This document shows, piece after piece, positions 1 through 18,878 of a stretch of 64,000 nt of DNA. Position 1 is the first letter of the stretch, and each line of letters starts with the position of its first letter. Source of the stretch: Methanofervidicoccus abyssi (lineage in GTDB: Archaea > AGJL01 > Methanococci > Methanococcales > Methanococcaceae); contig NZ_BFAX01000002.1 in the NCBI RefSeq assembly GCF_004310395.1, forward strand, positions 124,001 to 188,000, read 5' to 3'. The position numbers and the translations under genes are program-made. The notes beneath the pieces are model-generated. The model was not told the origin of the DNA, searched no databases, and saw nothing but the letters and a program-made list of their open reading frames with translations.

Positions 1-253
1 TTTTTCGCATTATAACATAGGGTATATCTGTATATAAAGAAAGTGTAGTTGCTAAGGGTATGCCCATAGCCTCTGCTGTGACGATCTTATCCACATCTTC
101 AAAATCACAGACTTCTATAATACAAGTCGCCACCTCCCTAAGTATATGAGGATCTACAAGAGGTATACCGTCTGATATTGGATGTACGAAGTAATGATAA
201 TCACCCCTCTTTATAACGGGAGAAGATTTCAACGTCTCTATCAACATTTTCAT
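1..253 (-). CDS. hpt: Hypoxanthine/guanine phosphoribosyltransferase, partial (3' end outside window)
   Basis: N-terminal part (about 84 residues) of an archaeal purine phosphoribosyltransferase, a cytosolic salvage enzyme joining hypoxanthine or guanine to PRPP. The N-terminus carries the archaeal Hpt signature ETLKSSP, then KRGDY and [10 protein letters not shown]; the chain leaves the window after IPYVIMRK, before the PRPP loop. The start is ATG at 253; a second ATG at 247 is equally possible because the AGAGGT-like ribosome binding site serves both. It begins only five bases after the stop of the Mrp-type ATPase, so the two are probably cotranscribed. The family call is by recognition of the conserved N-terminus. 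Confidence 0.85.
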
Positions 254-258
254 ATTTT

Positions 259-1113
259 TTACCTCTCTACCTTTTTAACGATCCTTTCAACTATCTTTTT
301 AAACTCTTTGGAAGCCGGACAGTCCAGGAGTACCATAGGTACCCCTCTATCTGATGCCTCCCTTGCCTTTATATCTAATGGTATTCTCCCTAAAAAGTCT
401 ATACCTAACTCCTTAGCTGCCTTCTCTCCTCCCCCCCTTCCAAATATATCCACTATTTTTTTGCAGTAAGGACATACAAACCCTGCCATATTTTCTATTA
501 ACCCCAATATTGGGATATTCAACATCTTAGCCATACCTACAGATCTCTTTGCATCTAAGAGGGCAACTTCCTCAGGTGTTGTAACTATAATTACCCCATC
601 GATATCAGGAATGGATTGCATTATAGTAAGTTGAACATCTCCAGTCCCTGGAGGTGTATCTATAAGTAGATAATCCAGATCCCCCCATACTACATCACTT
701 AGGAACTGTCTAATTGCACCACTTATCTTAGGACCTCTCCAGATCACGGGAGTATCCTTATTTGGTAAGAAGTAACTTATAGAGACAACCTTTATCCCTT
801 CAGGTGTTATAATGGGATATATACCATTCTCATCTGCGTAGGGTTGAACGTCTTCTACACCTAACATCTTAGGAATATTTGGACCATGTATATCTCCGTC
901 TAAGATACCTACCTTTTTCCCCATGGAGTTCAATGCAGTGGCTAAATTTACAGTTACAGTGGATTTCCCAACACCTCCTTTACCACTTAATACTCCTATC
1001 TTGTACTTTATTTTACTCATGTTTTTCCTTATTTTTTCATCCTGTATCTCCAATATTCTCCTGCTACAACTATCTCTTGATGGACATGTGTCATGTTTTC
1101 CATCACATTCCAC
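259..1113 (-). CDS. Mrp/Nbp35-family iron-sulfur cluster carrier ATPase
   Basis: Cytosolic P-loop ATPase of the Mrp/ApbC/Nbp35 family, thought to carry and transfer Fe-S clusters. It has a Cys-rich N-terminus ([11 protein letters not shown]), a deviant Walker [11 protein letters not shown] at about residues 43-52, a DTPPGTGD switch motif and a C-terminal CPYC pair that in this family bridges a cluster in the dimer. The GTG at 1113 is preferred because GAGGTGGT sits just upstream; an ATG at 1131 is in frame but has no ribosome binding site. Length matches the Methanocaldococcus homologue. It is followed by hpt after five bases. Confidence 0.9.
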
Positions 1114-8794: not shown

Positions 8795-8859
8795 CTTTTC
8801 ACCTTAAAAAAATGATGTGGTTATAAAGTGTAATAAAATGGACCACTTAGCCCCAATCA

Positions 8860-8890
8860 GCCCCATCCTGGCAGCGCCTTCGGATGGGAC
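8860..8890 (-). promoter_or_regulatory. SECIS element of hdrA
   Basis: Stem TCCCATCC with GGATGGGG (arms 8882-8889 and 8861-8868, one terminal wobble) closing on GAA-GGC-GCT-GCC-A, which matches the archaeal SECIS pattern. It lies 57 nt after the hdrA stop. Immediately upstream is the 22-nt segment complementary to the region just after the hdrA UGA. Confidence 0.87.
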
Positions 8891-8909
8891 TTCATCTTTT
8901 TTATCTCTC

Positions 8910-8931
8910 TAGCAAACCACCCTAACGTTGA
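8910..8931 (-). promoter_or_regulatory. 3'UTR segment complementary to hdrA coding region after the Sec codon
   Basis: These 22 bases are the exact reverse complement of 10287-10308 inside hdrA. In the transcript the segment starts 17 nt after the stop and ends 19 nt before the SECIS stem. Pairing would fold the SECIS back to within tens of nucleotides of the UGA at 10334-10336. That the repeat exists is seen directly; the pairing is inferred. Confidence 0.8.
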
Positions 8932-8947: not shown

Positions 8948-10924
8948 CTATTGATTCAACATATTATGGGTATCTAAGATTCCATCTATTGCAGATATAA
9001 CCTGTTCATCTCTGTAGTACCTCAACTGCAGGGCCCCACTTGGACAGGTAGCACAGCAAGAACCACAGCCTTTACATGCAATGTCATTTACTTCAGCCAC
9101 TTTATGTCCATCAACTTCCTTATAGGAGATTGCATTGTATGGACATACTTGGGCACAGATCTCACATCCTCCACAGATCTCCTTATTTACTATTGCTCTT
9201 ATCATCTCTATCTCGAACTTACCCTTTGCCATCGGTATTGCCACGGCACTAGCTGCACCTTTAGCCTGGGCTACTGTATCTGGGATATCCTTAGGACCTT
9301 GGGCCACTCCTGCTATAGCTATACCATCTACCTTGGTGTTAACTGGTGCCAACTTTGGATGTAGTTCCTTGAAGAATCCATCTGGACTGATATCCAATCC
9401 TAACATCTTTGCTACGTTCTTAGTGTCTGGTCTTGGTACAAGTCCAGCAGATAGTACCACGAGATCAGCTTCTATCTCTACTATCTCCCCCATCAATGTA
9501 TCCTCTACTCGAACTGTGAGGTTCTTTGTCTCTGGATCTTCAATAACACAGGCTGGTCTTCCCCTTATGAACTTAACCCCGAACTGTTCCTGAGCTCTCT
9601 GGTAATACTCTTCGTATCCCTTTCCAAAGGATCTTATATCCATGTAGCAAATGTAAACCTCTGCATCTGGCTCGTGCATCTTTATCAGTTGCGCATTCTT
9701 CAGGGCGAACATGCAGCAAATCCTTGAACAGTATGGATTGCCAACCTTCAGATCCCTGGAACCTACACACTGTATAAATACTACTCTGTGTGGGTGCTCT
9801 CCATCACTTGGCCTTATTACATGCCCTCCTGTGGGCCCTGCAGGGTTGATCATCCTCTCCAATTCTAAGGTGGTTATCACGTTGTCGTAAACTCCATACC
9901 CATATTCCTCTTTTAGGGATGCATCGAACTCGTTGAACCCTGTAGCCACAATTATTGTACCAACCTTTAACTTGATCTCCTCTGGTTTCTGGTTGAAATC
10001 TATTGCTCCTGGTCCACAGACACTTTCACACAGCCTACAGTCGATACAGTACTCCTTATCTATTGTATATATCAGGGGGACAGCCTGGGCAAATGGTACG
10101 TATATAGCCTTCCTGGTACCTATTCCTAAGTCAAATTCGTTAGGTACTTCGATAGGACATACTTTGGCACAGGCTCCACATCCTGTACACTTGGACTCAT
10201 CTACGTACCTTGGTTTTTTCTCTATGGTTACTTCGAAGTTACCGATGTATCCAGAGACGTTCTTTATCTCTGCGTAGGTGATTATTTCAACGTTAGGGTG
10301 GTTTGCTACTGTAACCATCTTAGGTGCCAAAATTCAAAGAGCACAATCATCTGTTGGGAATGTCTTGGCCAATTGGGCCATTCTACCTCCAATAGATGTT
10401 TCCTTCTCTACAATATACACCTTATATCCTTGATCCCCTAAATCTAGGGCAGCCTGAATTCCTGCAATACCTCCTCCAATGATAAGACAAGATCTATCTA
10501 CTTCCACAACCTTCTGAGGTACATCTTCCAACCTTTTAGCCCTCTCCACACCACCTGCAACTAATTCCATCGCTTTCTTTGTAGCTGCCTCTCTATCTCC
10601 TAAATGGACGAAAGAATCTTGTTCTCTGATATTTACGAACTCCAGATAGTAAGGAGAAAGCCCTGCTTCAGCGATACAGGCTCTAAAGGTAGGCTCGTGG
10701 ATCTTAGGAGTACATGCTGCAACAACCACTCTGTTTAACTTGTATTCTTTAATTGCATTTTTAATCATTTTCTGTCCCGGATCGGAACAGTAGAAGGGAT
10801 ATGTATTTGCATACACTACTCCATCAAGCTTTGAGGCGAACTCCTTCACCGCCTCACAATCTACAACGCCGTTAATATTGGCACCACAGTAGCAGATAAA
10901 AACCCCTATCCTGGGGCTTTCCAT
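8948..10924 (-). CDS. hdrA: Heterodisulfide reductase subunit A, selenoprotein (658 aa, Sec197)
   Basis: Flavin- and Fe-S-containing subunit that bifurcates electrons from the hydrogenase between ferredoxin and CoM-S-S-CoB. Visible are the N-terminal FICYCG region, a Rossmann GGGIAG at 150-155 for FAD, TDDCAL-Sec197-ILAPKM, two ferredoxin motifs at about 246-257 and 293-303, and two C-terminal motifs ([24 protein letters not shown]). The in-frame UGA is at 10334-10336; cysteine occupies this place in non-selenium HdrA. The ATG is preceded by GGAGGTGAATCT. It is first in the operon with vhuDGAUB. hdrB and hdrC are not in the window. It would appear split in a standard-code reading. Confidence 0.95.
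10287..10308 (-). promoter_or_regulatory. Coding segment complementary to the hdrA 3'UTR
   Basis: 22 bases in hdrA that encode VANHPNVE, starting 25 nt after the Sec UGA. They are exactly complementary to 3'UTR bases 8910-8931. At this distance a duplex would sit just ahead of a ribosome whose A site holds the UGA. Confidence 0.8.
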
Positions 10925-11602
10925 AGATTCACCTCCAAAAGTTAAATAATAACGAAAATATTATTATATATTAAAGTATTATAAAAATATATTGTTTAAC
11001 GCATTTAATAAGTTTTATTAGATATGCTATTAATCAATTTACTATTTTGAATCATTAATTACATTAGATTGACATTATAAAACCATTAAACATTCCAAAA
11101 TATTTCTATAAACACCGGATACAAAGATATTAAGGAATCCCTGCTGTAATATCAACAGTTGTATGAGAATATTCAGAATATTATTTTCTTAATCTTCTCC
11201 CTTTAAAATCTTGTATTTGGGTTTATTATTTTTTTATTTTTTAAAACCTTTTCTTATTTTTTGTAATTGTTATAATCCTTACATTTTCATCATCATTATT
11301 AAACCAAGAACATAATTTTTAAAGTATAAAAATAATAACTAAGAAAAAAATAGAAAAAGATAGGAAGAGATTTAACAGGAATTTCACGTACTTTTCCACT
11401 ATATCATATAATCTGGGGAATAAGAACTTATTTTGCTTTTTTTATTTTTATATTCATTGTCTTATTTTTCTTTAATTATCTTTTTATTATTTTTTATAAT
11501 AATTTTTATTATATGTTATTTTAAACTATCACTTTGATAGCGAGTGGGTTTATTATATTATTATTGAAATAACACTATCCTCATATTTCATCAAAAAAAA
11601 AA
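10925..11602. other. Long AT-rich spacer with hdrA promoter candidate and repeat copy
   Basis: There is no gene in 678 bases. On the minus strand a TATA-like AATATATAAT near 10960-10970 is a promoter candidate for hdrA. Bases 11111-11260 resemble 14259-14395 (a shared tract containing ATATCAACAGTTG followed by TTGTATTTG and T-rich runs) and form part of a degenerate repeat family. The rest is A/T homopolymer-rich. Confidence 0.6.
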
Positions 11603-17486: not shown

Positions 17487-18794
17487 TTGGTTGAGATAGT
17501 AAAAAATGTTGTATGTCCCTTCTGTGGCTGTCTCTGTGACGATATCGAAATTATGATAGAGGATGGCCACATCGTGGGGACAAGAAATGCCTGTAGAATA
17601 GGCCATGCAAAGTTTATGCACTTTGAAGGATCTGTAAGATATACGGAACCTATGATAAGGGAAAATAAAAAGGATAATTTCAAAAAAACAGACTACGATA
17701 CTGCAATTGAAGAGTCTGCAAGATTACTGGTAGAATCAAAACTCCCATTATTGTACGGATTCTCCTCTATAAGTTGTGAAGCACAGCGTGAAGCAATATT
17801 AATAGGGGAGAAAATTGGAGCTATCGTAGATAATACAGCAACTGTTTGACATGGACCTTCTCTCCTGGCAGTGCAGGATGTAGGATACCCTGTTTGTACC
17901 CTTGGAGAGATTAAAAACAGAGCTGATTTAGTAATATTCTGGGGATGCAATCCAATGCATGCCCATCCAAGGCATATGGGTAGATACTCAGTATTTGCAA
18001 GGGGATTCTTCAGGGAGAGGGGAAGGAGAGATAGGACAATAGTAGTGGTAGATCCAAGAAAAACACATACTGCAAAGTTAGCAGATCTCCACCTACAGGT
18101 AGAGCCTAACAAGGACTACGAGTTGATAAGTGCCATGAGAGCTGTCGTCAAGGGACACGAGTTAAATGTAGACAAGGTTGCAGGGATACCAGTTGATATT
18201 ATCTATGAAACGGTAGAGGCCTGTAAAAAGGCTCAGTTTGGTCAGTTATTCTTTGGTATGGGAGTAACAATGAGTAGAGGTAAACATAGGATTATAGACA
18301 ATGCCATCTGTCTGGTTATAGATTTAAACGCCTACACAAAATTTGGACTGATGCCAATGAGAGGACACTACAACGTAAATGGATTCAACCAGGTAATGTC
18401 TTGGTTAACAGGGTATCCTTATGCAGTGGATTTCAGTAGAGGTTACCCAAGGTACAACCCAGGAGAGACAAGTACAGTCGATCTCTTAGTTAGAGGAGAA
18501 GTTGACGTAATGATGAATATTGCATCAGATCCAGGGGCACACTTCCCACAGAAGGCAGTAGAACATATGGCCAAGATACCTTTAATATGTATAGAGCCTC
18601 ATCAAACACCTACAACTGAACTGTCTAACATTATAATACCAACTGCCTTTACAGGAGTTGAAATTGGAGGAGTTGCATATAGAATGGACGGAGTCCCATT
18701 AGAGCTTAAGAAGGTTATAGATCCTCCAGAAGGGGTTCTTACAGATGAAGAAGTCTTCAAGATCATGAGCAAGAAGATAAATGAGATGTTGTAA
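17487..18794 (+). CDS. fwdB: Formylmethanofuran dehydrogenase subunit B, selenoprotein (435 aa, Sec121)
   Basis: Catalytic subunit reducing CO2 on methanofuran with a tungsten or molybdenum pterin cofactor, the first step of methanogenesis. The N-terminal cluster motif is [10 protein letters not shown] (from Cys10). NTATV-Sec121-HGPSLLAV places the metal-ligand Sec at UGA 17847-17849; other forms have Cys. The C-terminal half reads [11 protein letters not shown] and EPHQTPTTE as in the molybdopterin oxidoreductase fold. The TTG at 17487 is preferred because GGGGTGATCCC precedes it; an in-frame GTG at 17478 lies inside that site. Other fwd subunits are not adjacent. A standard-code reading splits it at the UGA. 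Confidence 0.94.
17873..17890 (+). promoter_or_regulatory. Coding segment complementary to the fwdB 3'UTR
   Basis: GCAGGATGTAGGATACCC, inside the codons for VQDVGYP, begins 23 nt after the Sec UGA and is exactly complementary to 18809-18826 in the 3'UTR. Same geometry as in hdrA. Confidence 0.8.
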
Positions 18795-18808
18795 AATTTG
18801 ATATTACT

Positions 18809-18826
18809 GGGTATCCTACATCCTGC
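18809..18826 (+). promoter_or_regulatory. fwdB 3'UTR segment complementary to coding region after the Sec codon
   Basis: GGGTATCCTACATCCTGC starts 14 nt after the TAA stop and ends 17 nt before the SECIS stem. It is the perfect reverse complement of 17873-17890. Pairing would bring the SECIS next to the UGA, 995 nt away in linear sequence. Confidence 0.8.
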
Positions 18827-18843
18827 GGAGATGTTATCTAAGT

Positions 18844-18878
18844 GTTTGAAGGGGAACCCTTATGGGGACCCTTCAAAC
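18844..18878 (+). promoter_or_regulatory. SECIS element of fwdB
   Basis: 10-bp perfect stem GTTTGAAGGG with CCCTTCAAAC closing on GAA-CCC-TTAT-GGG-GA, an excellent match to the archaeal SECIS pattern. It lies 49 nt after the fwdB stop. Confidence 0.9.

Follow-up and report, generated by a model that had tools for sequence, protein, structure and literature searches.

In the window analysed (a 64,000-nt stretch of the Methanofervidicoccus abyssi genome), the Sec-containing fwdB gene carries one segment shortly after its in-frame UGA and another in the 3′UTR, on the 5′ side of the SECIS, that are exactly complementary to one another, and base pairing between the two very probably holds the SECIS next to the ribosome that decodes the UGA. 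The preliminary description of this DNA had proposed the pairing as a clamp that brings the SECIS close to the UGA. Compensatory changes in fwdB, hdrA and selD give the clamp and this placement strong support, as does its post-UGA position in several unrelated genes. Clamps of this kind appear to be in general use among selenoprotein mRNAs of Methanococcales in which the UGA is far from the SECIS. The features of fwdB are as follows.

17487..18794, + strand: fwdB, Sec-containing formylmethanofuran dehydrogenase subunit B; translation with UGA read as U, 435 aa
17847..17849, + strand: in-frame UGA (Sec codon) of fwdB, context TVUHGPS
17873..17890, + strand: fwdB clamp arm 1, codons QDVGYP of the coding region, +24 to +41 past the UGA; fully complementary to arm 2, with covariation
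18809..18826, + strand: fwdB clamp arm 2, 3′UTR, 5′ of the SECIS; complement of arm 1, supported by covariation and shuffles
18845..18878, + strand: fwdB SECIS with a GAA/A kink-turn-like motif; covariance model R1, E=3.1e-12, a match that is partly by construction because R1 was built from fwdB SECIS elements including the window copy

The fwdB frame is likely to start at the TTG at 17487 and ends with the TAA at 18792-18794, and its product is presumed to be subunit B on the basis of established knowledge of FwdB. The segments GCAGGATGTAGGATACCC (17873-17890) and GGGTATCCTACATCCTGC (18809-18826) are exact 18-nt reverse complements, as first described, and the pairing grows to 22 nt if G-U pairs and one mismatch are allowed. 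Arm 1 is separated from the UGA by 23 nt and arm 2 from the stop codon by 14 nt, the SECIS stem begins 18 nt past arm 2, and the predicted duplex energy of the two arms is -38.4 kcal/mol. The SECIS (TTTGAAGGGGAACCCTTATGGGGACCCTTCAAA) shows the stem, the GAA/A internal loop and the GC pairs above the loop that define Archaeal (Euryarchaeota) elements. Comparison of the stop-to-SECIS flank with the whole fwdB ORF gives 18 nt as the longest exact complement, whereas 1,500 dinucleotide shuffles yielded 13 nt at most, in agreement with the earlier judgement that an 18-mer has a very low probability of arising by chance. Shuffling also gave no more than 12 nt against the 60 nt following the UGA (5,000 shuffles), and the flank matched other 1,314-nt stretches of the window over 13 nt at most, setting aside its own reverse strand (a trivial self-match). 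Arm 1 has a second, internal complement of 13 nt at 18407-18419, which is within the chance range and lies in another GYP codon run. A second arm on the 3′ side of the fwdB SECIS is absent, the post-SECIS flank being no better than shuffles in 10 loci.

The comparison covered 36 Methanococcales genomes (a phylum-level search gave the same 36), and fwdB homologues are present in 34 of them. In Sec-type fwdB genes whose SECIS is in the 3′UTR, the sequence flanking it on the 5′ side is complementary to the coding region at approximately +17 to +49 after the UGA, and the gap between arm and SECIS is approximately 11-19 nt in loci outside Methanocaldococcaceae. The two arms change together: CAGGAAATAGG/CCTATTTCCTG in L005, AGGAGATAGG/CCTATCTCCT in L007, AGGAGGTAGG/CCTACCTCCT in L008, GCAGGACGTAGG/CCTACGTCCTGC in L014 and L019, and TAGAGGATATCCAGTT/AACTGGATATCCTCTA in the paralogue L083. 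In a gapless alignment of 24 cis and 3 trans rows, 89.9% of the cells pair, a percentage raised by the exclusion of rows without a detectable helix, compared with 30-43% when the partners are slid by 1-3 columns. Double changes occur at 7 of the 18 pairs, one of which shows UA, CG, GC and AU. The covariation score is 0.203 versus 0.080 +/- 0.008 for shuffled alignments, with none of 500 shuffles as high, although such shuffle-based scores, here and below, can be inflated by kinship among sequences.

Two comparisons had been named as checks in the preliminary description, namely covariation of the segments among related Sec-type fwdB genes and the state of Cys-type fwdB. Covariation is present in approximately 25 loci. 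The Cys-type genes comprise 11 records, corresponding to nine distinct loci (L020/L130 and L030/L127 are one gene each), and no matching arm was found in nine of the records, that is, in eight of the nine loci. The ninth (L020/L130, genome G019) is a TGT ortholog that still carries the SECIS and a 9-nt arm in its 3′UTR, and apparently represents a recent Sec-to-Cys change with a fossil SECIS. A second fwdB family (approximately 46% identical) has a post-UGA clamp of 17-19 bp in five loci; in its members L116-L119, which contain an in-frame TGA, no post-UGA clamp was found, and most of these have no SECIS close after the stop codon.

The window contains a further clamp, in hdrA on the opposite strand.

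8948..10926, - strand: hdrA (Sec), UGA at 10336-10334; recognised by the motif FPTDDCALU, its frame having 670 codons and being open up to 10960, with the first in-frame ATG being used as the 5′ end, which may differ
10287..10308, - strand: hdrA clamp arm, coding region, +26 to +47 after the UGA; 22-nt perfect complement of 8910-8931, with family covariation
8910..8931, - strand: hdrA clamp arm, 3′UTR, 5′ of the SECIS; complement of 10287-10308
8859..8891, - strand: hdrA SECIS, within a GATGA..CTGAT hairpin

The predicted duplex energy of the hdrA arms in the window is -40.1 kcal/mol, the clamp reaches up to 35 bp among relatives, and the covariation score of the family is 0.130 versus 0.075 when shuffled (0 of 500 shuffles as high). 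The GATGA..CTGAT frame of the SECIS hairpin (8859-8897, - strand, and the 3′UTRs of L184 and L187) resembles a kink-turn and is a possible L7Ae site. Additional complements were observed in two hdrA loci: L088 (G035) has a second, nested one of 20 nt between +234..253 and the 3′UTR beside its +30..54 clamp, and L081 has one of 17 nt at +250..266.

In selD, the covariation score is 0.339 versus 0.128 when shuffled (0 of 500), with 99.2% of the cells paired, again after exclusion of rows without a detectable helix. A 3′UTR arm forming a clamp of 14-22 bp is found in selD of Methanocaldococcaceae and genus g4. In the family to which the window belongs, the selD SECIS nearly abuts the stop codon and the arm resides inside the coding end, at approximately -55 to -40 from the stop (further upstream in L159), where it also co-changes with its partner (0 of 50 shuffles in 10 loci). 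The coding end of vhuD pairs with +46..61 after the second UGA (UGA2) in eight loci; in the vhuD locus L067 (G013), which has TGT as its second Sec codon, the 15-16-bp clamp after UGA2 is absent and an 8-bp match is present after UGA1. The published 5′UTR clamp of fdhA1 was recovered as a positive control, with none of 20 shuffles as good. The location of the second arm varies, being the 3′UTR (fwdB, hdrA and some selD), the coding end (other selD and vhuD), the 5′UTR (fdhA1, published) or, apparently, a separate RNA (in Methanocaldococcaceae).

In most genes with a clamp, the coding arm starts at 7-46 nt past the UGA, and where the ORF as a whole is scanned, its best complement sits just past the UGA, usually with none of 40 shuffles as good. 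The exceptions to this best site include fwdB L020, L021, L025, L026 and L029, hdrA L081, L088 and L092, and L116, L118 and L119 of the second fwdB family; some of these have no cis SECIS, and in others the match is outscored by a longer flank or a second site. Scanning of the UTR flanks of vhuU, fruA and hesB, in which the UGA is approximately 75-190 nt from the SECIS, detected no clamp or found the flank too short, and no clear clamp was seen in the tested regions of some other Sec genes, e.g. most vhuD genes in the window's family. The helix is 9-11 bp in the g2 genomes, presumed to be mesophilic Methanococcus, but in the other genera, presumed thermophiles, fwdB has mostly 17-26 bp and hdrA up to 35 bp, which would fit the trend published for fdhA1; hdrA and selD of the g2 genomes have approximately 7-11 bp or no clamp. 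Because R1 is too specific for the SECIS of most other genes, these were searched for by pattern scans and a Python finder. Two pattern matches were rejected, judging from their letters: GGAACCCCTACGGGACT, which lies within tRNA-like sequence, and GGAACCNATGGGACC, within apparent coding sequence.

In Methanocaldococcaceae, a SECIS is preceded by two guides, one for hdrA and one for fwdB, both on its 5′ side (GGGGTGGGCG..GCAACGCTAACCATCTTTGGGGTATCCTACATCCTGC..SECIS). The junction motif occurs once each in 13 of the 14 assemblies of the family and in no genome outside it among the 36; a Sec-fwdB contig is missing from the fourteenth assembly, G008. Pairing was examined in eight genomes: the first guide part forms 21-24 contiguous bp with hdrA at approximately +7..+30, and the second pairs with fwdB within +22..+43 over 17 or more contiguous Watson-Crick bp. 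Two changes in the hdrA guide of G003 are matched by compensatory changes in hdrA, and the fwdB guide of G009 matches the unusual GATTCA of that species' fwdB. Rfam scans of the fwdB 3′UTR and the guide element gave no relevant family. The element is embedded in the fwdB 3′UTR in ten assemblies (L010 and L011 being among the loci) and stands alone in G003, G009 and G013, as follows.

L046:2586-2685: stand-alone two-guide SECIS element
L065:2632-2725: stand-alone two-guide SECIS element
L165:3945-4047, - strand: stand-alone two-guide SECIS element

The element of G013 is at 315230, between two opposite-strand genes and 447 kb away from fwdB (at 762771); that of G009 is on a separate contig in a draft assembly; and that of G003 is 3.8 kb downstream of fwdB, past an opposite-strand ORF. 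The fwdB and hdrA genes of these three genomes keep the UGA, and no SECIS was detected beside either gene by a finder of imperfect sensitivity (the hdrA SECIS of G004 was missed). A cis SECIS was likewise not detected in hdrA of G008 and G014, where the GATGA..CTGAT hairpin remains but has lost the SECIS internal loop. By duplex energy with the guide, the site after the UGA ranks with the best windows of each target ORF; its lead is clear for the hdrA guide (-55 to -63, against no better than -43 at other sites), narrower for the fwdB guide and narrowest in G013. A scan of the whole collection with the 21-nt hdrA guide returned seven stretches, all of them hdrA antisense or guide elements. By eye, TATA-like boxes are present at approximately 30 nt upstream, and in most copies the SECIS is followed by T-rich stretches; the predicted folds of embedded and stand-alone copies differ. 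A repeated GATGTGGGGAGTTTCCGTTCCCCCCGA-like motif was also observed in intergenic regions of different genomes (L074 and L199), in one case, in G011, immediately before the guide element.

The stand-alone element suggests a candidate trans-acting SECIS guide RNA, which would be made as a separate transcript and be needed for Sec insertion; the putative RNA would be approximately 100-130 nt long and begin near GGGGUGGGCG. On balance, we favour the view that one Methanocaldococcaceae RNA with a SECIS and two antisense guides docks just past the UGAs of fwdB and hdrA and programs Sec in trans, the cis clamp of fwdB in the window being the intramolecular form. For hdrA, the chief alternative is that the gene shares a transcript with vhuD and uses the vhuD SECIS, which is the nearest downstream SECIS for the hdrA genes without one in cis and lies 490-577 nt past their stop codon.

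We infer that the helix forms in cells and raises Sec insertion. The fwdB arms would form a long-range helix in the mRNA, looping out approximately 900 nt of coding sequence. In genes with a 3′UTR SECIS, the arm lies 5′ of the SECIS, and a paired arm would therefore leave the SECIS at the helix end nearer the UGA; in fwdB, that end would be 23 nt from the UGA and 18 nt from the SECIS. SECIS-bound factors may thereby meet the ribosome arriving at the UGA, like those of a bacterial SECIS lying directly downstream of the UGA. Several points weigh against such tethering. In PMC11881835, a reporter with ORF-complementary flanks around a 5′UTR SECIS showed unchanged activity with three-fold less mRNA (approximately two-fold more activity per mRNA), and placement of a 5′ SECIS near the UGA was shown not to be required. 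The helix must also be unwound by translating ribosomes in every round, and, as described above, the clamp is not evident in all Sec genes.

Among other explanations of the pairing, the best placed, though unlikely, is that the helix is a roadblock or pause just past the UGA, which would let slow Sec-tRNA delivery compete with termination and make the SECIS placement incidental. The range of starts of the coding arm given above (+24 in fwdB) is a plausible leading-edge position, yet a local hairpin would suffice for a pause, whereas the partner arm adjoins the SECIS; moreover, the start distance varies widely, and a roadblock is compatible with tethering. We consider it improbable that the pairing serves mRNA stability or turnover, by shielding or as a target of double-strand nucleases, rather than recoding. 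The three-fold drop in reporter mRNA caused by a complementary flank (PMC11881835) fits this role, but the clamp occurs in Sec genes with a distant SECIS, no arm was detected in eight of nine Cys-fwdB loci and the ninth keeps its SECIS, and the vhuD helix follows UGA2 and is missing in the TGT locus.

A still smaller probability attaches to the 3′UTR arm being mainly a trans antisense regulator of paralogous mRNAs, such as Cys-type fwdB, upon a change in selenium. Methanococcus does switch between Sec and Cys isoforms with selenium, as stated in PMC11097638, and one of the two guides of the Methanocaldococcaceae element is complementary to hdrA. However, covariation ties the arms to the fwdB in cis (L005, L007, L008, L014, L080 and L083), several genomes contain only one fwdB match, and a SECIS is joined to both guides, which are aimed at post-UGA sites. 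Chance, or a remnant of an inverted duplication or template switch, is scarcely credible. Arm 1 partly spans GYP codons (GGATACCC), whose complement GGGTATCC is also GYP, so that short internal matches arise, but the 18 nt observed exceed the 13-nt maximum of the 1,500 shuffles, and compensatory changes in several gene families are not expected of an inert duplication.

Tethering of the SECIS would bear on the route from an archaeal SECIS, hundreds of nucleotides away, to the UGA-decoding ribosome, which is counted as an open question because archaea have no known SECIS-binding factor (PMC11881835). A widespread, covarying clamp offers a physical answer that is testable gene by gene; it predicts the position of the SECIS in the clamped form and would account for nucleotide constraint just past the UGA. 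If the trans form is true, it would represent a natural RNA-guided stop-codon recoding system, which would be new biology, and possibly a tool to place selenocysteine at chosen UGA codons.

The closest known system is fdhA1, in which the flanks of a 5′UTR SECIS are complementary to the ORF (RNA Biol 2025; PMC11881835), with a longer helix in thermophiles; the same paper calls fwdB fwuB. As in fdhA1, the SECIS of fwdB would be set downstream of the UGA through pairing with the coding sequence, the flank complements the ORF 3′ of the Sec UGA, and the arrangement is conserved across Methanococcales with compensatory change (fwdB, hdrA and selD). Both flanks pair in fdhA1 (7 + 10 nt in M. maripaludis), whereas fwdB is a one-flank variant in which only the 5′ flank pairs; its SECIS (18845-18878) follows the stop codon at 18794 rather than residing in the 5′UTR, and the clamp extends to hdrA, selD, the second fwdB family and vhuD. 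The preliminary description knew of no such clamp in archaeal selenoprotein mRNAs, which is only partly right in view of fdhA1: a clamp of fwdB or of any 3′UTR SECIS is not mentioned in the available text of PMC11881835. The literature searched, with most subscription journals outside its coverage, contained no report of a 3′UTR SECIS clamp or a natural SECIS guide RNA.

The clamped SECIS would lie within tens of nucleotides downstream of the UGA, as does the bSECIS, for which the distance from the UGA to the apical loop is 16-37 nt (PMC13188914). Unlike the bSECIS, it would owe this proximity to long-range pairing, not contiguity, and it has the archaeal GAA/A motif. The guide RNAs of C/D and H/ACA sRNPs are structured, may carry two guides and recruit machinery to a target through their antisense guides. 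The Methanocaldococcaceae element would likewise be a structured RNA with two antisense guides, but it would direct UGA decoding on an mRNA, not RNA modification, and the SECIS replaces the C/D or ACA boxes. Antisense tethering, or SECIS capture, has been proposed for viral mRNAs by Taylor and co-workers (PMC11510084), and the candidate trans form resembles it in that a SECIS on one RNA would serve a UGA on another through complementarity beside the UGA. SECIS capture is a virus-host mRNA hypothesis, without a covariation basis in the text available, whereas the bispecific element of guides and SECIS in Methanocaldococcaceae shows covariation with two host mRNAs.
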